DNA of 24,768 nt, from the IMG/VR virus record IMGVR_UViG_3300025102_000272, positions 1 to 24,768 of that record. One strand, written 5' to 3'. Shown here one piece after another: positions 4,672 through 24,137 of this stretch. Position 1 is the stretch's first letter. Each line of letters begins with the position of its first letter. Made by a program: the position numbers and the translations under genes. Origin of the DNA: a virus. Under the pieces are notes generated by a model, which saw nothing but the letters and a program-made list of their open reading frames with translations, had not been told where the DNA came from and did no database searches.

Positions 4672-5043
4672 ATGGCCGCGTTGAATCTGATCGAGAAACT
4701 CAAGAAAGCAGCAAATTTAAAGCCATCTAAAAAGACTGTTGTTTTAACGAACGGAGAAGTTGTTGAGTTTTACTGCGCTCCCTTAACGATGGCAGAGAGA
4801 CAAAAAGCCCAAGCCCAAGCAAAGAATGACGACACCAACGAACTAGCTCTTCAACTACTGGTCAATAAAGCAGTTGATGATAAGGGTGAGCGTTTATTTA
4901 ACGTCAGTCACATCAGTGAGTTGAAGTACATGTGTCGTGAACAGGATGTCCAAGCACTCATGCTTGCAGTAATCAATGATTCAGAAGAAGAGGAGGCACC
5001 AACCGACATGAAAAGAACTAGAAAAGCAGCTTCGGAAGGATAA
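4672..5043 (+). CDS. Tail assembly chaperone, G-like upstream frame
   Basis: 123 residues, ATG 4672, eight bases after the dyad element. The sequence KLKKAANLKPSKKTVVLTNGEVVEFYCAPLTMAERQKAQAQA, then an acidic/helical body (DTNELALQLLVNKAVDDKGERLFNVSHISELKYMCREQDVQALMLAVI) and an acidic-basic tail, is the standard pattern of phage tail chaperones (compare the 'VxYxxPLTxxERxxA' strand-helix motif). Such proteins bind the tape measure and recruit tail-tube subunits. Its position directly upstream of the T-like frame and the tape measure is diagnostic. The last 11 codons overlap an open +1/-2 frame (from 5012) that continues into the T-like domain. Confidence 0.8.
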   Translation: MAALNLIEKLKKAANLKPSKKTVVLTNGEVVEFYCAPLTMAERQKAQAQAKNDDTNELALQLLVNKAVDDKGERLFNVSHISELKYMCREQDVQALMLAVINDSEEEEAPTDMKRTRKAASEG

Positions 5044-5050
5044 TTTCTTG

Positions 5051-5203
5051 ATGCTTTCCTTCGGAGTCGCGAAGGAATTAGGTATGACCCTGCAACAGCT
5101 TTATCAAAACATCACTTTAGAGGAGCTTTTAGCGTGGTCTGCATATTTTTCAATCATCAATCAAGAGCAAGATGAAGCTATGAAAAAGGCAAGACGACGC
5201 TAA
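5051..5203 (+). CDS. Tail assembly chaperone, T-like downstream frame
   Basis: A 50-codon frame from ATG 5051, seven bases after the G-like stop. The product FGVAKELGMTLQQLYQNITLEELLAWSAYFSIINQEQDEAMKKARRR has the hallmarks of the T half of a phage G/GT chaperone: an 'A.E.GMT..qL....t..EL..W.AYf.l..e' core and a basic C-terminus. In lambda-type phages it is made only as an extension of G by a -1 frameshift. Here the frame continues upstream without a stop to 5012, overlapping the G-like end, but reaching it needs +1 or -2. No classical slippery heptamer is seen; AAA followed by G at 5023-5026 would allow +1 re-pairing. Independent reinitiation at ATG 5051 is the alternative. Confidence 0.75.
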   Translation: MLSFGVAKELGMTLQQLYQNITLEELLAWSAYFSIINQEQDEAMKKARRR

Positions 5204-14870: not shown

Positions 14871-16733
14871 TTGGCAGACCTTAAGATTACTCAGTTACCA
14901 AGCCTAACTTCATTAGATGCGACTGACCCAATTCCTGTAGCGGATTTAAGTGCGACTGAAACGCGGAAGATAACAGCAAAGAATTTTGTTCAGCAAGGCG
15001 TTGCCTTTATAGACAACAATTCAATACCAGCCAATAAGATTACCTACCCGTTAACAGCGGCGCAGGTGGTCACGGCATCCCTAGCCGACTCGGCTGTAAC
15101 AGCAGCGAAGATTGCTGCCGACGCAGTAGGAAGTTCTGCTATAGCTGCAAATGCAGTGGGGGCTAGTGAATTAGCCGATGCGTCTGTGGATACTGATGCG
15201 CTCCAAGACGCATCCGTGACATCGGCAAAAATTGGAAGTGATGTAATTGTCGCCGGGAACATAGCAGCAAACGCTATTGGAAGTTCAGAATTAGCTGACT
15301 TAAGTGTGGATGCGGCAGCCCTACAAAGTAACAGCGTATTAACCAGTAAAATAAATGCTTTAGCCGTAACAAATGCTAAATTAGCAGGGAGTATTACAGG
15401 GGATAAGTTAACAGATTCAACAATAACTTCGACTCAGTTAGCGACAAATAGCGTCACAAGTGTTGAGCTTGGTGACGCATCTGTGGATACCGCTGCTGTC
15501 GTAGATTCTGCAATCACGGATGCCAAGGTTGCTAGTGGTATCAGTGGTTCTAAAATAACTGATGATACACTTACTGCGGCTAAAATCCCAACGTCAGCAT
15601 TAGATAGAGGCTTAAGTCGTGTTGGTACAGCTATTGGTATTACTAATGCTGTGTCGGGTGGAGCCTCTACAAGATCAGGAATAAGCTATGACAATCAGGG
15701 TTTAATAACTGCGACGCAAGCTTTAGCAGCAGCAGATTTACCTTTAAGTTCAGCTAGTGCAGTAGGTGGTGTATCTGTTCCTAGTGCAGGTGGTTTAGCT
15801 GTTGATAATTTGGGAGCGATATCAATCAATAACACAATTGCCGCCGCGACAGTAAATGGAATTACATATTCAGCTAAGGGAATAATCACATCTACTACGG
15901 CGTTAGTAAGTTCTGATTTACCTGTGGCGACGGCAACAGCGATAGGTGCTATATCAGTACCTTCGGGCAGCAGTCCATTACAAGTAGACGGGGCAGGTGT
16001 TTTATCCTTATCAACTAGCGGTGTTACTGCTGGTACTCATGCAAAAGTTACAGTTTCATCGACTGGAATAGTTACAGCAGGTTCAACTTTAACGGTGGCA
16101 GATATACCAGCTCTTGATGCTACGAAGATTGTATCAGGAACATTCGGTTCAGCTCAGATCGCATCAAGCTCTATCCAGATGGGTAAGCTTGCTGATGAGA
16201 GTCTTGGCTTTATACAAGAGGCGCAACCTGATATAACCAACCTGCCAAAGGGTGTGTTCTGGTTACAGGAGAGTACATCAGAGTACAAGATTTTTAACGG
16301 TAACAGTTGGTATAGCGTCGGTTTAAGCGGTACAACAGGCGACAACTTGAGGTTTTCGGGAACTGTTAATGCAAGTAATGGTCAAATCGTTTCGCTTACA
16401 GAATTTGGTACTTCAGGAGGTTTTACAGTTGGTTCTCAAATTAACGCGGCTAATGCTGGATTAGTCGGTGCTTACTTCCTAGTTGTTACCGCCGGTTCTT
16501 CTATAAATGTTGTTTCAGGATCTAGTTTTGATGTAGGTGACTGGGCTTTATGCTCCAAGGATGATACTTGGATTCGCGTTGACCTTGCAGGTAGTGGTGG
16601 AGGAAGTGGTGCAACAAGTTTAGATGGGTTATCTGATGTATCTATTACAAGTGCAGCAACAGGAAACTTGATTCAGTATCAGTCAGGAGGAAATTGGACT
16701 AACGTATCACTCATTTCAGGTGGAACGTACTAA
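14871..16733 (+). CDS. Repetitive tail fibre protein, 620 aa
   Basis: 620 residues from TTG 14871, with a G-rich ribosome site (AGGGGG at 14860-14865). The start DLKITQLPSLTSLDATDPIPVADLSATETRKIT is a common phage fibre N-terminus. Residues about 50-245 are a low-complexity series of short turns (SxVTxAKIAxxAVGSSxIAANAVGASELADASVD), likely a triple-stranded beta-helical shaft. Residues 270-440 hold three longer repeats built on (I/V)TYxxxGIITxxxALxxxDLPxxxAxxxG. The C-terminal part (FIQEAQPDITNLPKGVFWLQESTSEYKIFNGNSWYSVG, then WALCSKDDTWIRVDL) looks globular and aromatic, possibly a trimer cap or receptor-contact domain. It ends ISGGTY, a tail shared with two later fibre genes. Side-fibre role is inferred from composition. 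Confidence 0.75.
   Translation: MADLKITQLPSLTSLDATDPIPVADLSATETRKITAKNFVQQGVAFIDNNSIPANKITYPLTAAQVVTASLADSAVTAAKIAADAVGSSAIAANAVGASELADASVDTDALQDASVTSAKIGSDVIVAGNIAANAIGSSELADLSVDAAALQSNSVLTSKINALAVTNAKLAGSITGDKLTDSTITSTQLATNSVTSVELGDASVDTAAVVDSAITDAKVASGISGSKITDDTLTAAKIPTSALDRGLSRVGTAIGITNAVSGGASTRSGISYDNQGLITATQALAAADLPLSSASAVGGVSVPSAGGLAVDNLGAISINNTIAAATVNGITYSAKGIITSTTALVSSDLPVATATAIGAISVPSGSSPLQVDGAGVLSLSTSGVTAGTHAKVTVSSTGIVTAGSTLTVADIPALDATKIVSGTFGSAQIASSSIQMGKLADESLGFIQEAQPDITNLPKGVFWLQESTSEYKIFNGNSWYSVGLSGTTGDNLRFSGTVNASNGQIVSLTEFGTSGGFTVGSQINAANAGLVGAYFLVVTAGSSINVVSGSSFDVGDWALCSKDDTWIRVDLAGSGGGSGATSLDGLSDVSITSAATGNLIQYQSGGNWTNVSLISGGTY
15050..15590 (+). repeat. Coding repeats in the fibre shaft
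   Basis: Degenerate coding repeats: the protein unit IAANAVGASELADASVDTDAL (from about 15144) returns as IAANAIGSSELADLSVDAAAL (from about 15260), some 120 bases later, and GACGCATCTGTGGATACC (15474-15491) resembles GATGCGTCTGTGGATACT (15177-15194). Such stretches allow shaft length to change by recombination. Confidence 0.6.
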
Positions 16734-16740
16734 CTTAAGT
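16731..16740 (+). repeat. Intergenic dyad-like palindrome ACTTAAGT, copy 6 (weak)
   Basis: TAACTTAAGT overlaps the TAA stop of the 620-residue fibre gene; ACTTAAGT (16733-16740) is a perfect eight-base palindrome formed by the two outer arms of the dyad without its spacer. A partial second match, CTAGTTAGG, follows 14 bases later. The same ACTTAAGT occurs at 3717-3724 and inside coding sequence near 15299, so chance is possible. Confidence 0.25.
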
Positions 16741-16778
16741 AGACTGTATTTATCTAGTTAGGTTGGTCTTTAAAAGTT

Positions 16779-18662
16779 ATGGCTGTAAACATCCAATTAA
16801 AGTATTCAAGCACTGAAAACTCAGCACCCTCCGCATCAGATTTTTCGGATGTTGGGATACTAGCGATCAATGCTCATGCGAATAGTCCGGCTATCTACAT
16901 GAAAGATAGTGGTGGGTCTGTCGTAAAGATGGCAGGGGTAGGCTCTATTACAACTCCCGCTGCTAGTGATTCAGTCGCAGGTATATCTGAATATGCGACT
17001 AACGCAGAGACAACAACCGGTACAGCAACGGATCGCTCTGTTACTCCCGCAGGTTTAGCCGCTGTTACTTCAGCAGAGAGAACAACAAGTAATACTAATT
17101 ATCTGGCGAAGTCAGGAGGCACACTTACAGGAGTGTTAGCAGCAACAGCAGGTACAGCAGCAGCCCCATCAATTCATTTTTCCGACACTGATTCGGGTAT
17201 CTATGGAGGTACAAATACAGTTGCCTTAACCTCGGCAGGGGCAGCAACTTTAACTTCTTTATCGACAGGTTATATCCAAGTTGCAAATCGTTTAGGTATT
17301 GGTATAGCCCCCGATATTGCTTTACAAATTAAAGGTGCGGGGGAATTGGTACGCTTTTCTGATGCTAACGATGCGGGTTATTTAAGTGCGCTAACTCATA
17401 CTGATGGACAGTTTGTTATTAGTGCTGATTTAACGAATACAGCGAGTAACTCAGAAGTCCGTTTCCAAGTTGATGGCTCAGATGCAGGGCGTTTTGACGC
17501 AGGGCAAAGATTATTACTCGGACCTACAGCAGCTAGAACACTTTACCAGTCTCAAAATAGTAAGTTACAGATAGAAGGAACGGATATCTCAACAAGTAGT
17601 CTATCTATTCTAACTAATCAAAATAATACAAATCCTGCGATACTTACACTTGGTAAGACAAGAGGAACAGCGGTTGGAGCTACCACAACAGTTCAGCAGA
17701 ATGATGAATTAGGACAACTTCTCTTTCAGGGTTCGGATGGAACTAACCTATTAATAGGAGCGAAGATCGCAGCCCTTGTTGACGGTGAACCCGGCACAGG
17801 CGCAGATACTTCAGATATGCCGGGAAGACTGGCTTTTTACACAACTCCAGACGGTAGCGACACACCTGCGGAGAGGATAACCATAAAAAATAGCGGAGTT
17901 GTAGGAATCAATAATACAAACCCCATTTATACCTTAGATATCGGAGGTCATACTAAAGCTTGGACATATGAGGCAACTACCAGTATTCAAGCCCCGATGA
18001 TTGAGATTGATGCTTCTACTTTTGGGTATATTGATTTCAAAGATGGATCAACTGGAACTGAAGATTACGACGTTCGCATAAAACAAGGTACTTCCAATGG
18101 TCTTGATATTGATGTAGGTGGTCATGGTAATACAATTATTCGCGGTTTGACTATTGATGGAGATGGTTCAGTTAGTGCTGGTGGTACGGTAGCTGAGTCA
18201 AACAGGTCTGCTTCTCATGGCGCTGTAAACGCTACGGGTTTCTCATCAAGAACAGGTGCAGGCGGTGGTTTCACAGGTAATTTATTTAATATTGCGTGGG
18301 TTAGTAATACTACTCCGAAACTTTATATAGATAACACTGATCTTGGAACTATTTCAGTAACATCTGATTACCGAGTAAAGCAAAATGTAGAGAGTCAGAC
18401 TGCATCAGGTATTGATCGCGTTAAGAACCTAAGACCTGTTACCTATGACTTTGCTGATTACGGCACTTTATTCAAAGCTGATGGAGTAACAAGAGAAGGA
18501 TTTATCGCGCATGAAGTAGCCGAGGTCATTCCTAGTGGCTGTGAAGGCGAGAAAGATAAAGAAGATTCACTTCAAAGCTTAAGAATAGATGCTATTGTTT
18601 CTGTCCTAACAAAAGCAGTGCAAGAGTTAGCGGTTAAAGTCGAGGCATTAGAAGCGAAATAG
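16779..18662 (+). CDS. Tail fibre with C-terminal S74 intramolecular chaperone/protease
   Basis: 627 residues. Residues 1-50 (NIQLKYSSTENSAPSASDF...GILAINAH...AIYMKDSG) are a virion-attachment-type domain also found in the proteins at 19470 and 20649. The central region is beta-rich: IHFSDTDSGIYGGTNTVAL, NRLGIGIAPDIALQIKG, EVRFQVDGSDAGRFDAGQRL, ITIKNSGVVGINNTNPIYTL. The last about 100 residues are an S74 peptidase domain: SDYRVKQN with Ser529 and Lys534, spaced as in endosialidase-type fibres, then RPVTYDF, GFIAHEVAEVIP, and a final helix ALTKAVQELAVKVEALEAK-like (VLTKAVQELAVKVEALEAK). Family knowledge: the domain trimerises the fibre and then cleaves itself off before the serine. A mature protein of about 528 residues is predicted. 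Confidence 0.85.
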   Translation: MAVNIQLKYSSTENSAPSASDFSDVGILAINAHANSPAIYMKDSGGSVVKMAGVGSITTPAASDSVAGISEYATNAETTTGTATDRSVTPAGLAAVTSAERTTSNTNYLAKSGGTLTGVLAATAGTAAAPSIHFSDTDSGIYGGTNTVALTSAGAATLTSLSTGYIQVANRLGIGIAPDIALQIKGAGELVRFSDANDAGYLSALTHTDGQFVISADLTNTASNSEVRFQVDGSDAGRFDAGQRLLLGPTAARTLYQSQNSKLQIEGTDISTSSLSILTNQNNTNPAILTLGKTRGTAVGATTTVQQNDELGQLLFQGSDGTNLLIGAKIAALVDGEPGTGADTSDMPGRLAFYTTPDGSDTPAERITIKNSGVVGINNTNPIYTLDIGGHTKAWTYEATTSIQAPMIEIDASTFGYIDFKDGSTGTEDYDVRIKQGTSNGLDIDVGGHGNTIIRGLTIDGDGSVSAGGTVAESNRSASHGAVNATGFSSRTGAGGGFTGNLFNIAWVSNTTPKLYIDNTDLGTISVTSDYRVKQNVESQTASGIDRVKNLRPVTYDFADYGTLFKADGVTREGFIAHEVAEVIPSGCEGEKDKEDSLQSLRIDAIVSVLTKAVQELAVKVEALEAK

Positions 18663-18664
18663 CA

Positions 18665-18679
18665 TATACTTATTTAAGT
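18665..18679 (+). promoter_or_regulatory. TATACT overlapping dyad element, copy 7
   Basis: ACTTATTTAAGT (18668-18679) has both outer arms of the ACTT-NNNN-AAGT dyad and matches ACTTGGTTAAGT at 10 of 12 positions. TATACT (18665-18670), one mismatch from TATAAT, overlaps its left arm. It occupies the 30-base gap before the ATG at 18693. Confidence 0.4.
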
Positions 18680-18692
18680 TAAAACAACTCAA

Positions 18693-18872
18693 ATGGATCT
18701 ACAGGGTCGCCTCGACGTAAGAAAAGCAGAATTAAAAGCAATTCAGCAAGATTTTGAGACTAAAAAGTTAGAGATGACGGCTATTGAAGATCAGTACAAG
18801 CTAAAGTTAGGTTCAATACAAGAGTTAGAGTCACAATTAAAAGAGGAGACACCGGCTTGTGAAGTGAGCTAA
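18693..18872 (+). CDS. Small coiled-coil protein, 59 aa
   Basis: A 59-codon frame filling the space between two well-supported genes and bounded on both sides by dyad elements. The product MDLQGRLDVRKAELKAIQQD, then FETKKLEMTAIEDQYKLKLG, then SIQELESQLKEE is almost entirely one charged amphipathic helix with heptad-like leucine/isoleucine spacing, followed by a short PACEVS tail. There is no membrane segment and no clear ribosome site (caactcaaATG). Small helical proteins of this sort are common beside phage fibre genes and could act as a fibre chaperone or trimerisation aid, but I recognise no family. Codon use and strand match the neighbours, so I consider it genuine. Confidence 0.6.
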   Translation: MDLQGRLDVRKAELKAIQQDFETKKLEMTAIEDQYKLKLGSIQELESQLKEETPACEVS

Positions 18873-18894
18873 TATAAACCCAACTTGGTTAAGT
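18873..18894 (+). promoter_or_regulatory. TATAAA plus dyad element, copy 8, before the Ig-like gene
   Basis: TATAAA (18873-18878) overlaps AAACCCAACTTGGTTAAGT (18876-18894), the closest relative of the copy at 13503-13521 (18 of 19 bases). The dyad ends four bases before ATG 18899. The pair of near-identical copies about 5.4 kb apart, each directly abutting a start codon, is the best evidence that the element is a conserved signal. Confidence 0.5.
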
Positions 18895-18898
18895 CGGG

Positions 18899-19240
18899 AT
18901 GGCAATCGAACCGGGAACTTATAACATGAGGATTCAGCGACGATCAGATCATGCTGTTGACTTTGAATTGAAACATAACGGAACTGCGATTGACTTAACG
19001 GGTTATACTGTTGCCTCTCAAGTATGGGATGCGTCTCGTACCAGTAAGGCTGCGGACGTGACCATTACTGTGACTAACACAACAGGTGGTTTATTTACTT
19101 GGAAAGTAACAGATACCCAGACGACGACTTTTACAGCTAATGCTTATAACTACGATATTCTCCTAACTGACCCCGGTGGTTCTAAACAATATTGGGTCGA
19201 AGGAGAAATTTTCATGTCGGAGGGATATACGGGAACATGA
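18899..19240 (+). CDS. Ig-like/BppU-N-like small virion protein, 113 aa
   Basis: 113 residues from the ATG beside the dyad element. The sequence AIEPGTYNMRIQRRSDHAVDFELKHNGTAIDLTGYTVASQVWD, then DVTITVTNTTGGLFTWKVTDTQTTTFTANAYNYDILLTDPGGSKQYWVEGEIFMSEG, follows the Ig-like sandwich domain found at the N-terminus of baseplate upper proteins and in many fibre-associated phage proteins (F.l...g..iDLTGYtv..qv.d and y.yDi.ltd..G....w..G). It is short enough to be that one domain alone. It may anchor the downstream fibres to the tail tip. The stop overlaps the next start (ATGA at 19237-19240). Confidence 0.65.
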   Translation: MAIEPGTYNMRIQRRSDHAVDFELKHNGTAIDLTGYTVASQVWDASRTSKAADVTITVTNTTGGLFTWKVTDTQTTTFTANAYNYDILLTDPGGSKQYWVEGEIFMSEGYTGT

Positions 19241-19470
19241 CTGCAGTAAATGTAAGTACGAATAAAAATGTAATCACCGTTAAAGAGGGTGATTCAACCG
19301 TAGTCACAGTATCTACGGCCGGACCTCAAGGCCCAGCGGCGGAGGGTTTTGACATAGATAGCTCCGCTAAAGTAGATAAAAGTGTCGTTTACTACGACTC
19401 GTCTGCTGGTCAGTTTAAGGCTGACAATCTTCAAACAATTCTCACCCTTACTGACGGAGGTAACTTTTAA
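19237..19470 (+). CDS. Short fibre adapter protein with collagen-like GPQGP, 77 aa
   Basis: 77 residues from ATG 19237, preferred over the in-frame start at 19192 because it overlaps the previous TGA by the usual ATGA. The first 25 residues (AVNVSTNKNVITVKEGDSTVVTVS) are two beta strands, then TAGPQGPAAEG, a short collagen-like turn, then IDSSAKVDKSVVYYDSSAGQFKADNLQTILTLTDGGNF. The V.Y...A..FKAD pattern is frequent in phage fibre connectors. It ends in GGNF, the C-terminal tail shared with the 620- and 391-residue proteins, and the stop overlaps the start of the 391-residue protein. Probable linker between the Ig-like base and the next fibre. Confidence 0.6.
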   Translation: MTAVNVSTNKNVITVKEGDSTVVTVSTAGPQGPAAEGFDIDSSAKVDKSVVYYDSSAGQFKADNLQTILTLTDGGNF

Positions 19471-20645
19471 TGGCTAACACAATTCGGATCAAAAGATCAA
19501 CTGGATCTTCAGCACCTTCAAGTCTTGCAAATGCTGAATTAGCATACGCTGAAGGCTCAAATATTCTTTATTACGGAACAGGTACTGGGGGTGCGGGAGG
19601 TTCCGCAACATCTATTGAAGCTGTTGGTGGAGATGGAGCGTTCTTTGATAAGACAACAAGTCAAACAGCTAATTATGTACTTGCCGCACCAGATGGCAGT
19701 GCAGGTGCAGCTACATATCGCGCTCTTGCAGTCGGAGATATACCAACTTTAACGGCATCAAAAGTTAGTGATTTTGATACACAGGTAAGGACAAATAGAC
19801 TTGATCAGCTAACTGCCCCGTCTGCCTCTGTATCTCTGAATAGTCAGAAGATTACAAACCTAGCTAGTCCGGTCGCTTCAACTGATGCAGCCTCAAAACA
19901 ATATGTCGATAATAATTCGCAGGGACTTGATGTAAAAGCCTCAGTAAGAGTTGCTACTACTTCCAACGGTACACTTGCTTCTGCTTTTGCTAATGGGCAA
20001 ACAGTTGATGGAGTAACCCTTGCAACAAATGATCGAATATTGCTTAAAGACCAGTCAACCGGGACGGAAAATGGGATTTACGTTGTTGCAGCAAGCGGCG
20101 CACCAACAAGAGCCGATGATTACGCGGCGGGTGCAGGTGTAGCTTCTAGTTTCTGTTTCGTTGAAGCGGGTACAACTAACGCAGATAGCGGTTGGACTTG
20201 TACTAATAATAAATCAAGTGATGTAGTGGGATCTGATGCTCTTACTTATGCCCAGTTCTCAGGTGCGGGACAGATACAGGCGGGAAATGGTATTGAAAAA
20301 TCAGGCAATACAATATCGGCTGATTTGAAGGCAAACGGCGGCGTTGTTATTGAATCAGGAGAGATAGCGATTGATCTCTCAGCTTCCAGCATTACTGGAA
20401 CACTCGGACTTTCTGATGGTGGGACAGGAGCGACAACAGCAGCAGGTGTTAGAACTGCGCTTTCTTTAGTTGTCGGTACAGATATTCAGGCTTATGACGC
20501 ACAGTTAGCAGATGTAGCTGGCTTAGCTGTAACTGATGGTGGTTTTATTGTTGGTAATGGTTCTAATTTTGTCTTAGAAACAGGAGCAACAGCACGTACC
20601 AGTCTAGGAATACCAGATATGGAAATAGATGGAGGTACTTTCTGA
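19470..20645 (+). CDS. Tail fibre protein, 391 aa
   Basis: 391 residues, start overlapping the previous stop (TAATG). The N-terminal domain NTIRIKRSTGSSAPSSLANAELAYAEGSNILYYG is paralogous to that of the next gene and of the 627-residue fibre. Residues 65-145 carry a fibre-shaft pattern (NYVLAAPDGSAGAATYRALAVGDIPTL, QKITNLASPVASTDAASKQYVDNN). Residues about 150-270 form a module I know from many marine phage fibres: QGLDVKASVRVATTSNG, VDGVTLATNDRILLKDQSTGTENGIYVVAASGAPTRADDY, DSGWTCTNN. Then GNGIEKSGNTISADLKANGG and GLSDGGTGATTAAGVRTAL follow, typical of shaft-to-tip joints. It ends MEIDGGTF. A structural fibre segment is well supported; the ligand is unknown. Confidence 0.8.
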   Translation: MANTIRIKRSTGSSAPSSLANAELAYAEGSNILYYGTGTGGAGGSATSIEAVGGDGAFFDKTTSQTANYVLAAPDGSAGAATYRALAVGDIPTLTASKVSDFDTQVRTNRLDQLTAPSASVSLNSQKITNLASPVASTDAASKQYVDNNSQGLDVKASVRVATTSNGTLASAFANGQTVDGVTLATNDRILLKDQSTGTENGIYVVAASGAPTRADDYAAGAGVASSFCFVEAGTTNADSGWTCTNNKSSDVVGSDALTYAQFSGAGQIQAGNGIEKSGNTISADLKANGGVVIESGEIAIDLSASSITGTLGLSDGGTGATTAAGVRTALSLVVGTDIQAYDAQLADVAGLAVTDGGFIVGNGSNFVLETGATARTSLGIPDMEIDGGTF

Positions 20646-20648
20646 TTT

Positions 20649-21458
20649 ATGTCAAATGTAATTAAGCTAAAGCGAGGAACAAGCACACCTACCACCAGCA
20701 ATATTGTTGATGGTGAGGTTGCTGTTGATACTTCTGCAAAGAAATTATATATAAGAGATAGCAGCACTATTAAAGAGATAGGAGGAGGTCTACAAAATGT
20801 TTCTGAAGATACTTCACCTCAGTTAGGTGGGGCACTTGATGTTAATGGTCAAGATATTGTTACGACATCAAATGCAGACATTGAACTAGCTCCAGATGGT
20901 ACAGGTAAAACAGTATTAAAAGGCAATACAAATCCGGGCACACTGGTTTTTAATTGTGAAAGTAATTCACACGGACAAACAGTAAAGGCTCAACCTCATA
21001 GTGCTTCTGTAACTAATGCTTTAACTTTGCCCGCAGGAGCAGATCAAGAAATTGTAGGCACAGTAGCAACTCAAACACTTACTAATAAAACGTTGACATC
21101 TCCTGTCTTAAATACAGGTGTTTCAGGTTCGGCAATATTAGATGAAGACAATATGGCAAGCAACAGTGCAACACAACTTGCCACGCAGCAGTCAATAAAA
21201 GCGTATGTAGATGCAAATTCTGGAGGAGGTGGATCTACCAGTCCGGGCGGTTCTAATACACAGGTTCAATACAACAACTCTGGATCGTTTGGGGGTAGTA
21301 GCAATATGACATTTGATGGTACAAACTTAGCTGTTACAGGAACAGTTGCGGCTGCTAGTCCTGCTGTTGCTACTGCGGGTTTAAGGAAAATCCATGCTTC
21401 ATCATCTGCCCCCGGAAATTCGGACGGCAGTGTAGGTGATCTTTGGGTGAAATTCTAA
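20649..21458 (+). CDS. Tail fibre protein, 269 aa
   Basis: 269 residues, three bases after the previous stop. The N-terminal domain SNVIKLKRGTSTPTTSNIVDGEVAVDTSAKKLYIRDSS is paralogous to the start of the 391-residue protein. Then come SPQLGGALDVNGQDIVTTSNADIELAPDGTGKTVLKG, NPGTLVFNCESNSHGQTVKAQPHSASVTNALTLPAG and TVATQTLTNKTLTSPVLNTG, repeat modules widespread in marine phage fibres. A glycine-rich hinge (NSGGGGSTSPGGSN) leads to TQVQYNNSGSFGGSSNMTFDGTNLAVTGTV and an end SSAPGNSDGSVGDLWVKF, which often occurs just before a receptor-binding or tip gene. It probably forms the middle of a fibre to which the following 890-residue protein attaches. Confidence 0.75.
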   Translation: MSNVIKLKRGTSTPTTSNIVDGEVAVDTSAKKLYIRDSSTIKEIGGGLQNVSEDTSPQLGGALDVNGQDIVTTSNADIELAPDGTGKTVLKGNTNPGTLVFNCESNSHGQTVKAQPHSASVTNALTLPAGADQEIVGTVATQTLTNKTLTSPVLNTGVSGSAILDEDNMASNSATQLATQQSIKAYVDANSGGGGSTSPGGSNTQVQYNNSGSFGGSSNMTFDGTNLAVTGTVAAASPAVATAGLRKIHASSSAPGNSDGSVGDLWVKF

Positions 21459-21464
21459 TTTTTT

Positions 21465-24137
21465 ATGACTGTTTTTTACGTTGATCCCGAAGGCGAAGCT
21501 GGAGATGGAACAGGCTCCAGTTTTGCTAATCGTGCAGTAGGAACTAATAGCACCAATTCAACAATTCTAAGTAATATTGCCGCAGGTGATGAGGTAAGAA
21601 TCAAGAAAAGTCCAGACCCTACGTCTCTAGGTACGGGTGTTGTTAACGATAAGTGGGCTGATGGTTCGTACTACATGAAAGATATTAATAGTGTTCAAAC
21701 GTGGAGTACAACGGCAGGTGCTAGTGTTTTTTACGCTTGGAGTCACAGGATAGCGACAGGCGATTTTATTTATATTCAGAATGAGACTGCTTTATCTACT
21801 CATAGAATTAATGGGATTTGGCAATGTACGAAAGTAGATGATAATTATTTTAAATTAGATGGCTATGTTGCTGCCTCTACAAGCCAAGGAAGTATATCGG
21901 GGGCTGATTACAGCATTATTTCTGGAGGTTGCTACAAGTTAAATACCAGTAACGTCACCAAGATGTTGATGGGTGGAAATGATGTTGACTATACAAATAA
22001 CGTAAGACCAACTTGGACTACAACAAGTGATTGCACTTACGCACAACAGACAACTCCTACAAGTAATTGGAGTAGTAGCGGTGCAGATTGTTTATATCCT
22101 CCAATCTCTGACCGTTTTACGATCAATGCAAATACCAGTGCAGGGAAAGTTGCTCATGTTCAACTTGACTCAACACTAGATCTCTCTGCCTATCAACAGA
22201 TTTCTATAATTATCAATCAAGATTCGGCTAATGCCAATGTAAATGGCAATATAAAAGTTTGTTTATGTAGTGATAATAGTGGAGATACGATTGTTGATGA
22301 GGCTGTTCAAAAATTCAACTATAACAATACAAGCTACAATAATAATTTATGGTGGCATAACACGGAAAATACGGGAGCTGCTTTAGGTTCAAGTATTAAT
22401 TCAATCGCTATATATGTTACGAATACACATACCAGTCAAATGGTATTTAATATCAATAGTTTAATTGTTTCAAAAAGTGCTTCGTCTAATGATTGTCTAA
22501 CTTATAATTCTTTAGTCGGATTAAATACAACTGCTGATCCTTTTTGGCACTCAGTTGGTTATATAAGAAACGATATAATTGTTTTAGAAAAGACCAATAA
22601 AAACAGAGGTACACCTGCTTATACTTATTACTCAGGAGTAGGTTATTACACTTCTGTTAATAGTAATTCTGCGACTATATATGTTAGACAGCCCTTAATA
22701 TTTGGAGCCATTAGAGAGACATGGGGATCTCAATTTAGTAATGGAATATTATATTTTAGTTCCAATAGCGGAGCAAGTGGAAATCCTATTGTTGTATCAG
22801 GAGGGTGGGATACCAGTGCAATGAGCAATCAAACTGGGAGTACTTTTGTTGACATGAAATGCGGTCAGGAAGAATTTATTTATATGAATAATTGCAGTTA
22901 TATTCAATTCTCTAAATTAGGTGCTGTCAGATTTTATACGGGTGTTTTTAGTAATGGAAATTACAATACTGGAACGTCGAATTATGTTGAGATGACAGAT
23001 ATTGATGTTATTTGTTGCGACCAAAGTGGTGCTGATCTTTATAGTACTAAATTCAATAAATTAAAGATAAACTTCTCATACGGTGGTCAAAATAACAGAG
23101 GCATTTCTCTTCAACAAATAGGGATTGCCTCTGGAGCAAATAAAGCTGATTTTGTTTTAAAAGGTCGAGCCTTGCGGAATGGTGGAGGCTATGGAGTTTA
23201 TATAAATCATTGGGTTCCTGAGTTCTTACATTTCCATACAATTGATATGAGAGGTTTGTCAGCACAAGGTTTGAGAATAACTTCCATAAATGATATGGAA
23301 ATAGAGAATTATTACGGAGGATGTATGCAGCAACTTAATAGTGGTTCAAATGATGGTTCTTTAGTCGTTCATTCAGATGTTGGAGGGAATATTGTCATGA
23401 ACAATGTTTATATCGAGGGTGGTACTTATGCCATGAAGTTAGCTTCTGGAATAACGATAAATAATTTACAACATACTATTTTGACTGATACGGATAAAAT
23501 GATGGGAACGGGAGGTGGTTATAGCATTTGGAATACTAATTCCAATCCTAATCAGCCTGTAGTTGTTTTAGGAGGGCAAGTTGCAAAAGAAATAAGACCT
23601 CAATCTAACTCTTATATGAAGTTACATAATTTGGCAATGAATATGACTGGCACAGAAATAGGTACAGGTGGGCTTTCTAATGGTTATGTATGGGCTTCCG
23701 ATTATGACCAAACATCAGGCGATTTAAGATCTTTCTATAAAAACCATACTGTCTATGCTGAAACATCTACAACGCAACCGGGTAGCGGTACAGCTTGGAA
23801 GCAAGAATTGGATTCTGGTTTAGGTACTACGAGTACAACACCTCAAGAATTTTCACTTGGGAAAGTTGCTGTTAATGGAGGAAGCCAACTAACAGTTTCC
23901 ATTTATGTGAGACGATCATCTACAAATGTTTTTCCGGGTATTCATATAAAGAAGAATGGTTTGATTGGGGTTACAAGTGACGTTTCGGCATATATAACTG
24001 CGGCGGCTGATACTTGGCAACAAATCTCTGCAAGCTGTACTCCTACAGCAGCAGGAGTTTTAGAAATCACACTTGGAGCGTATCGTGCCGGAACTGGTGA
24101 TTCTTTTTACGATACCTTTAGTGCTACTCAAGCATAA
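21465..24137 (+). CDS. Large beta-rich tail protein, probable receptor- or glycan-binding, 890 aa
   Basis: 890 residues, six bases after the previous stop. The start TVFYVDPEGEAGDGTGSSFANRAVG...NIAAGDEVRIKKS resembles the first rungs of pectate-lyase-type beta-helix proteins. Residues 85-140 (FYAWSHRIATGDFIYIQNET..HRINGIWQCTKVDDNYFKLDG) match the FCCH-like module (tGD.v.i....ingtw.v..v....f.ldG). Residues 195-340 look like a carbohydrate-binding jelly roll (AHVQLDSTLDLSAYQQISIIIN, SINSIAIYVTNTH). About 430-740 is asparagine-, glycine- and serine-rich, compatible with a long beta-helix. The last 145 residues (PQEFSLGKVAVNGGSQLTVSIYVRR, ADTWQQISASCTPTAAGVLEITLGAYRAG) resemble another jelly roll. 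I see no certain catalytic residues, so depolymerase activity is possible but not shown. Confidence 0.65.
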   Translation: MTVFYVDPEGEAGDGTGSSFANRAVGTNSTNSTILSNIAAGDEVRIKKSPDPTSLGTGVVNDKWADGSYYMKDINSVQTWSTTAGASVFYAWSHRIATGDFIYIQNETALSTHRINGIWQCTKVDDNYFKLDGYVAASTSQGSISGADYSIISGGCYKLNTSNVTKMLMGGNDVDYTNNVRPTWTTTSDCTYAQQTTPTSNWSSSGADCLYPPISDRFTINANTSAGKVAHVQLDSTLDLSAYQQISIIINQDSANANVNGNIKVCLCSDNSGDTIVDEAVQKFNYNNTSYNNNLWWHNTENTGAALGSSINSIAIYVTNTHTSQMVFNINSLIVSKSASSNDCLTYNSLVGLNTTADPFWHSVGYIRNDIIVLEKTNKNRGTPAYTYYSGVGYYTSVNSNSATIYVRQPLIFGAIRETWGSQFSNGILYFSSNSGASGNPIVVSGGWDTSAMSNQTGSTFVDMKCGQEEFIYMNNCSYIQFSKLGAVRFYTGVFSNGNYNTGTSNYVEMTDIDVICCDQSGADLYSTKFNKLKINFSYGGQNNRGISLQQIGIASGANKADFVLKGRALRNGGGYGVYINHWVPEFLHFHTIDMRGLSAQGLRITSINDMEIENYYGGCMQQLNSGSNDGSLVVHSDVGGNIVMNNVYIEGGTYAMKLASGITINNLQHTILTDTDKMMGTGGGYSIWNTNSNPNQPVVVLGGQVAKEIRPQSNSYMKLHNLAMNMTGTEIGTGGLSNGYVWASDYDQTSGDLRSFYKNHTVYAETSTTQPGSGTAWKQELDSGLGTTSTTPQEFSLGKVAVNGGSQLTVSIYVRRSSTNVFPGIHIKKNGLIGVTSDVSAYITAAADTWQQISASCTPTAAGVLEITLGAYRAGTGDSFYDTFSATQA

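Follow-up and report, generated by a model that had tools for sequence, protein, structure and literature searches.

We analysed a 24,768-base stretch of viral DNA (IMG/VR virus record IMGVR_UViG_3300025102_000272, positions 1 to 24,768; hereafter the window), a fragment of a long-tailed marine phage whose main genes lie on the + strand and which shows PHROG matches to head scaffold, major head protein, tape measure, tail and fibre families. At three junctions between its fibre genes, a protein ending in a six-residue tail with a Gly-Gly core is followed by a protein that starts with one shared N-terminal domain (Table 1). Judged from the sequences of the window and its relatives, tail and domain are probably the two parts of a plug-and-socket joint of the gp36-gp37 type between fibre proteins. 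In the following, plug stands for the tail at the C-terminus and socket for the N-terminal domain of about 42 residues in the partner.

Tails and domains at three fibre-gene junctions

Table 1 Fibre-region genes of the window with their tails and domains (roles as plug and socket are putative).
Gene	Position	Strand	Tail (codons)	Domain	Putative role	Other features
P620	14871..16733	+	ISGGTY (16713-16730)		plug only	620 amino acids; tail-fibre-like; PHROG tail fiber families
P627	16779..18662	+		~16779-16910, weak match	socket only	C-terminal Peptidase_S74 (chaperone of endosialidase) domain, residues 529-586
P113	18899..19240	+				LtfC/BppU_N-like, both under Pfam cut-offs
P77	19237..19470	+	TDGGNF (19450-19467)		plug only	77 amino acids from ATG 19237; stop ends 19470
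P391	19470..20645	+	IDGGTF (20625-20642)	~19470-19601	socket and plug	391 amino acids
P269	20649..21458	+		~20649-20780	socket only

The preliminary description of this DNA had reported the three C-termini, a gene with the N-terminal domain directly after each of them, and neither feature elsewhere in the window, and all of this is borne out. A domain profile built from relatives finds among the 27 genes of the window, at E<0.001, only P391 (1.8e-21), P269 (9.9e-20) and P627 (1.1e-4), and the tail occurs in P620, P77 and P391 only. P620 and P627 form the weakest pair: the domain of P627, with the start NIQLKYSS, scores 13 bits, and the only relatives found for this junction are the copy of the window (locus L001) and L457, the latter 89% identical with the same tail and gap. 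The first two genes are 45 nucleotides (nt) apart, P77 and P391 overlap by 1 nt, and 3 nt separate P391 from P269.

The plug consensus reads [ILV][DN][G/F/Y]G[TS][F/Y]-COOH, and the residues ahead of these last six show little conservation. The domain follows the pattern M-x-N-x-I-K-L-K-R ... GELAINT ... KLY. As a chance baseline, C-termini of the form GG.[FY] were found in 0 of 1262 genes from 120 random viral stretches, which gave one weak domain match.

Association of tail and domain in related loci and wider scans

The survey of relatives that the preliminary description had called for shows that tail and domain co-occur, both in loci related to P391 and in wider scans. We tallied complete neighbouring + strand genes in 79 related loci and the window, with L001 excluded: 142 neighbouring pairs consist of a tail and then a domain, 481 have neither and none has only one. 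These pairs are not independent, since 142 of 145 tails (in the tally including L001) sit immediately before or after P391, at homologous junctions. When the window and its copy are counted, all 73 complete P391 relatives end [IVL][DN]GG[TSL][FY]. P391 directly follows P77 in 71 of 71 cases and P113 directly precedes P77 in 69 of 71, the other two lying at contig edges. The pattern of P77 with tail only, P391 with domain and tail, and P269 with domain only is seen across the set (every third locus viewed).

We then turn to two DNA-pattern scans of IMG/VR, each giving 120 stretches where at least 120 matched, so that all counts are among the matches listed. The scan for the start MANTI(K)LK(R), with 119 stretches examined, includes 4 domain genes so near a contig edge that no upstream gene can be read; the readable upstream genes end [DE]GG[TSV][FY] in 115 of 115 cases, two with an extra S. 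Since 111 of these 115 upstream proteins are P391 relatives, this mostly re-samples one junction. In the scan for IDGGTY followed by a stop, each of the 122 matches forms, in frame, the C-terminal end of an open reading frame of at least 40 amino acids. A domain gene lies within 150 nt downstream of 71 tails and within 1.2 kilobases (kb) of 9 more, and with L175, whose domain begins at about residue 15 and was reassigned by eye (lowering the tails without domain from 37 to 36), the total is 81 of 122; 5 further tails reach the contig end. When the tails are grouped on the 54 residues that precede the motif, a downstream domain gene is seen in 46 of 56 groups, indicating an association that extends beyond one family.

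The reverse test, from domain to tail and less dependent on one junction, used the 72 KR-type sockets of the IDGGTY-scan loci that do not directly follow a scanned tail and whose upstream gene is readable; 7 of the upstream proteins resemble window proteins. Twelve sockets were set aside because the scanned tail itself lies one gene further up. Among the remaining 60, 34 directly follow a canonical tail, 8 have one gene between and 6 follow a variant of the form D/E-[ACSN]-G-x-[FY] (for example IDAGTY, LDAGSY or IDAGTF), 48 in total. The strict and the loose tail pattern each occur in 0 of the 1262 random genes. Bias remains in this test, because an IDGGTY tail is present in every locus and the loose variant was drawn up with the misses already in view. 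Per locus, tails equal domains in 80 of the 126 loci of both scans that have all such genes inside, 70 of these with two of each; 25 have one tail and no domain, and 21 have other unequal numbers. Adjacency of tail and domain is a strong rule but not a strict one: the 'always' in the title of the preliminary description is too strong beyond the P391 family, since for 36 of 117 evaluable tails the 1.2 kb that follow contain no domain gene.

Thirty of these 36 tails belong to one family of proteins of about 77 amino acids (SNYTK..., IIKGTEFxTEFD; for example L093 9525-9758, - strand), which commonly follows genes for about 215 and 508 amino acids and precedes an unrelated gene. The family has no match in the phage collection at E 0.01 and is likely a fibre adaptor. 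A domain search over whole contigs finds exactly one domain gene on 7 of the 30 adaptor contigs (all at E<=2.3e-14, on contigs of at least 13.9 kb), compared with a weak match (E 3.8e-4) on 1 of 50 random contigs, namely every contig of 13 kb or more in a list of 80 (Fisher test, 0.004). Restricting the count to adaptor contigs of 13 kb or more, a threshold set once the result was known, gives 7 of 13 (Fisher test, 2e-5). On 6 of the 7 contigs the gene upstream of the domain gene has no tail, and on L444 a second tail gene lies directly upstream. In 5 of those 6, what we presume to be the major head protein, or its end, is encoded one to four genes upstream of the domain gene. Plug and socket therefore co-occur even when they are not neighbours, kilobases apart, and neither ribosome sites nor gene splitting explains a pairing in trans.

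Further recurrent endings and small genes were seen in the same loci. The proteins that precede a P890-type protein and carry the domain end GD[LV]W[VI]K[FY] in 6 of 6 cases among 61 pairs, once with an added TS (window 20649-21458, before P890 at 21465-24137; L023, L050, L056, L066 and L078), possibly a second kind of joint; P890-type proteins start ..YVD..G..G.GTSFANR.. or similar, and P890 has no Pfam or PHROG match. Several socket-only proteins (L097, L106, L107, L114, L118, L137, L152, L180 and L289) end A[ML]AI[AV][LF]G or SI[AV]FG[GN], as does one HTVC106P protein (L082, 4068-5939). The next gene often encodes a protein of about 110 amino acids starting MA[NS]xFK, and these endings are possibly a third C-terminal signal. 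In several marine phages, small genes starting MD[AES][KQ].. separate a plug gene from the socket gene that belongs to it (L083, which is P-HM1, 4856-5062; L104, L132 and L133).

A predicted end-to-end joint and its alternatives

We read the tail as a plug mainly because the C-terminus of T4 gp36 binds the N-terminus of gp37, as stated in two reviews (PMC9603124; PMC3004832). Going by fibre families, we assume that these proteins form trimers. Each trimer would then insert the three plugs at its distal tip into the three sockets that head the following trimer, which would link separately folded rods end to end and in order. A protein with a plug only would start a chain (P620, P77), one with both parts would be a middle link (P391) and one with a socket only would end it (P627, P269). 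The chains predicted for the window are P620-P627 and (P113-)P77-P391-P269, which may also be their order in the virion; the Peptidase_S74 C-terminus of P627 fits a distal position.

AlphaFold monomer models of two read-through chains (tail, linker and domain) give a confident domain with block means of 88-94 and four short strands. A Foldseek search with the domain against predicted viral proteins returns 22 matches at E<=0.001, including gp37 of T4-like phages; the fold search against solved structures in the PDB returns nothing at E<=0.001. Weaker structural likeness is seen to the N-termini of the Bordetella phage major tropism determinant (Mtd) and of phage hyaluronidase (Z 2.3-2.9) and to a collagen trimerisation domain (Z 3.2), which is suggestive only. 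By sequence, the domain has no match in the PDB, and its profile gives only chance-like rows.

Several observations weigh against a plug-and-socket joint. In the same two AlphaFold models the tail is of low confidence (block means of 56 and 63) and, going by the strands reported, lies undocked, although a joint between trimers is beyond what a monomer can show, and the models thus count neither for nor against docking. The strongest covariation between tail and domain, at tail position -4 with domain columns 7, 8 and 1, equals the division of the T4 clade from the rest and was therefore not taken as evidence. Among the 36 tails without a domain gene nearby, six lie outside the adaptor family (L102, L119, L124, L135, L139 and L203); those of L102, L119 and L139 precede a gene that resembles what we take to be a T4-type neck protein. 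Of the adaptor contigs, which are fragments, 23 of 30 (6 of the 13 large ones) have no domain gene. Twelve of the 60 sockets have no plug or variant nearby, 4 of them on contigs of the trans type (L115, L129, L160 and L200) and 7 more with gaps of 76 to 350 nt. Two Vibrio phages of the Zobellviridae also have one tail each before a gene without domain, and the domain gene of CRP-3 follows a protein ending DFDFGSI. In the IDGGTY-scan loci, 17 of 19 genes with an Mtd-type domain have no canonical tail before them, and bbp9, which precedes Mtd in BPP-1, ends LADLGGIA, without an F/Y plug. Tail and domain thus occur independently in part, which the preliminary description had named as a refuting case.

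Tails that lack a domain gene next to them, and sockets that lack a plug, would suit an alternative in which the tail is a signal for a third factor (a chaperone, an adaptor or the tail tip), the N-terminal domain only a trimerising cap, and adjacency the result of a shared cassette; the faint likeness of the domain to Mtd, hyaluronidase and collagen trimerisation domains (Z at most 3.2) points the same way. We consider this unlikely, because the association spans many unrelated plug bodies, no discordant pair occurs in the P391-type loci, the parts co-occur in trans and T4 gp36 and gp37 bind end to end. Less probable still is a tail that caps the beta-structure of its own trimer, with the next trimer merely abutting: in its favour, the second AlphaFold model has short, low-confidence bridges at residues 34-35 and 38-39, flanking the turn at DGG; against it, a cap leaves the tail-less last links (P269, P627 and T4 gp37) unexplained.

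The preliminary description had offered two ideas, docking of the tail into the next protein and the breaking up, long ago, of a single long modular fibre gene. The latter is in keeping with genes that abut or overlap in the same direction, but a search with one regular expression over 15,877 stop-to-stop open reading frames finds no fusion across a junction, the residues before the last six are little conserved and trans pairs do not fit, so that we regard it as very improbable. Head-to-tail docking is the better supported of the two, by the association beyond one family, the trans pairs and the T4 junction; the contact itself is a prediction, and the tail lies undocked in both monomer models. 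The idea that Gly-Gly is a by-product of the next gene's Shine-Dalgarno sequence (GGAGGT) overlapping the coding end can, as sole cause, be rejected as extremely improbable: GGAGGT does lie 8 and 12 nt ahead of the following ATG at two of the three window junctions, where this need may favour it, but the first has GGTGGA with the ATG 45 nt past the stop, Gly-Gly is encoded in 14 forms over 115 junctions, 111 of them P391-type (GGAGGA 31, GGTGGA 24, GGTGGT 12, GGCGGT 11 and others), 96 of the 115 have a separate Shine-Dalgarno-like sequence between stop and start, and neither the D, nor the aromatic last residue, nor the pairing of plugs and sockets that are not neighbours is accounted for.

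Some features of the window lie beside the joint. P113 has PHROG matches to phrog_1084 and phrog_3304 (L-shaped tail fiber protein assembly) and is a probable base adaptor; P77 has no match in the phage collection. The sequence AACTTGGTTAAGT is repeated at 13509-13521 and 18882-18894, with variants at 1674, 4652, 5211, 9430, 10496 and 16665. Allowing up to 2 mismatches, this makes 8 matches where 1.2 are expected, five of which are intergenic, and it may be a promoter.

Comparison with known phages, Mtd and T4 gp36-gp37

The tail-domain pair is present at two junctions each in P-HM1, Melnitz and S-CBS2, and likewise in the two Vibrio Zobellviridae phages. The cassettes of P-HM1, S-CBS2 and Melnitz have the order of the window, with a plug gene, a gene with plug and socket and a socket gene. 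P-HM1 has in front a gene annotated 'L-shaped tail fiber protein assembly', and Melnitz, by eye, a similar small gene. Unlike the window, P-HM1 has a gene for 68 amino acids between one plug and its socket, and one plug of Melnitz carries an extra S (IDGGTYS). Two relatives of the P391 body, P-SS2 gp074 and a protein of HTVC106P, have neither tail nor domain; gp074 appears in a table of P-SS2 structural proteins (PMC2784084).

Mtd-type N-termini show a more distant likeness. The Mtd_N profile (PF18454) matches 8 of 22 diverse sockets at E<=0.05, with a best value of 4.9e-5; P269 reaches 15.0 bits against a cut-off of 26.3, and P391 and P627 are without a listed match. The domain model compares with the Mtd fold at Z 2.4-2.8, the best at Z 2.8 with a root-mean-square deviation of 2.5 over 42 residues. 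The genes before Mtd-type domains often have ends like D[YFWL]G[SAG][ILT] (L178, L185, L205, L213, L236, L163, L462 and L458), possibly a divergent plug; exceptions are one family ending LFW[ST]EAQA (5 cases) and the S-CAM phages with TYGWII.

We had predicted in advance an ending [DE][GYFLHI]G[STAG]x(0-2) for genes that precede Mtd-type sockets, and as written this prediction failed. Of its four records, S-CAM1 and S-CAM3 end TYGWII and do not fit, a Syntrophomonadaceae phage with DWGSLT is a near miss, and Phosso has no upstream gene on the same strand. The pattern as widened afterwards (W, N and up to 3 end residues) fits 18 of 26 genes, but also 5 of the 1262 random genes.

The closest known counterpart is the joint of T4 itself. 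T4 gp36 ends VQDFGYY, and gp37, the product of the next gene, holds the domain at residues 6-46; with the profile from window-type loci it scores 30.0 bits, and 37.6 bits on its first 55 residues. We read 12 T4-type junctions: eight divergent picks from 40 listed of 1259 gp37-like records, T4, two Acinetobacter phages and one further match, with phT4A (L088) left out for runs of N at its junction. All 12 of these T4-like and Colwellia junctions have a tail of this type and a domain at E<=1.4e-8, the profile being built from window-type loci only. Eleven tails read D[FY]G[TSY][FY] (that of STP4-a with an extra S), and the tail of Colwellia phage 9A is MDGGVF. The established families do not capture this likeness: Phage_T4_gp36 (PF03903) matches T4 gp36 itself and none of P620, P77 and P391 at E<=0.5, Pfam has nothing at E<=0.1 over the N-terminus of T4 gp37 or the last 26 residues of gp36, and a PDB sequence search finds neither T4 gp36 nor residues 1-97 of gp37 covered by any entry.

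That gp36 and gp37 meet in this order is old knowledge. We propose, tentatively and with nearly as much to be said for it as against it, that a single transferable code of a six-residue plug and a socket of about 42 residues could join fibre proteins in phages of several tail types, be chainable and work for non-neighbours, with T4 gp36-gp37 as one instance and the Mtd type as a diverged offshoot whose plugs follow D[YFWL]G[SAG]. In a literature search judged by the titles listed, with most subscription journals outside its scope, neither the six-residue tail nor the shared domain turned up as a joint code. If true, the code would provide a rule, to be read off the sequence, for the stacking and order of fibre proteins, including in metagenomic phages without an annotated fibre. 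It would also name the residues of the T4 gp36-gp37 joint, so that an old question would come down to testing six residues.

Set beside T4, the window shows the same arrangement, with the tail on the proximal partner (other T4-like gp36 proteins end [ILQ]D[FY]G[TSY][FY]) and the gp37-type domain on the distal one. It differs in that GG replaces FG in the plug and the tail of P620 has S for D, and in that the joint would occur twice in a row, in P77-P391-P269, and once more in P620-P627.

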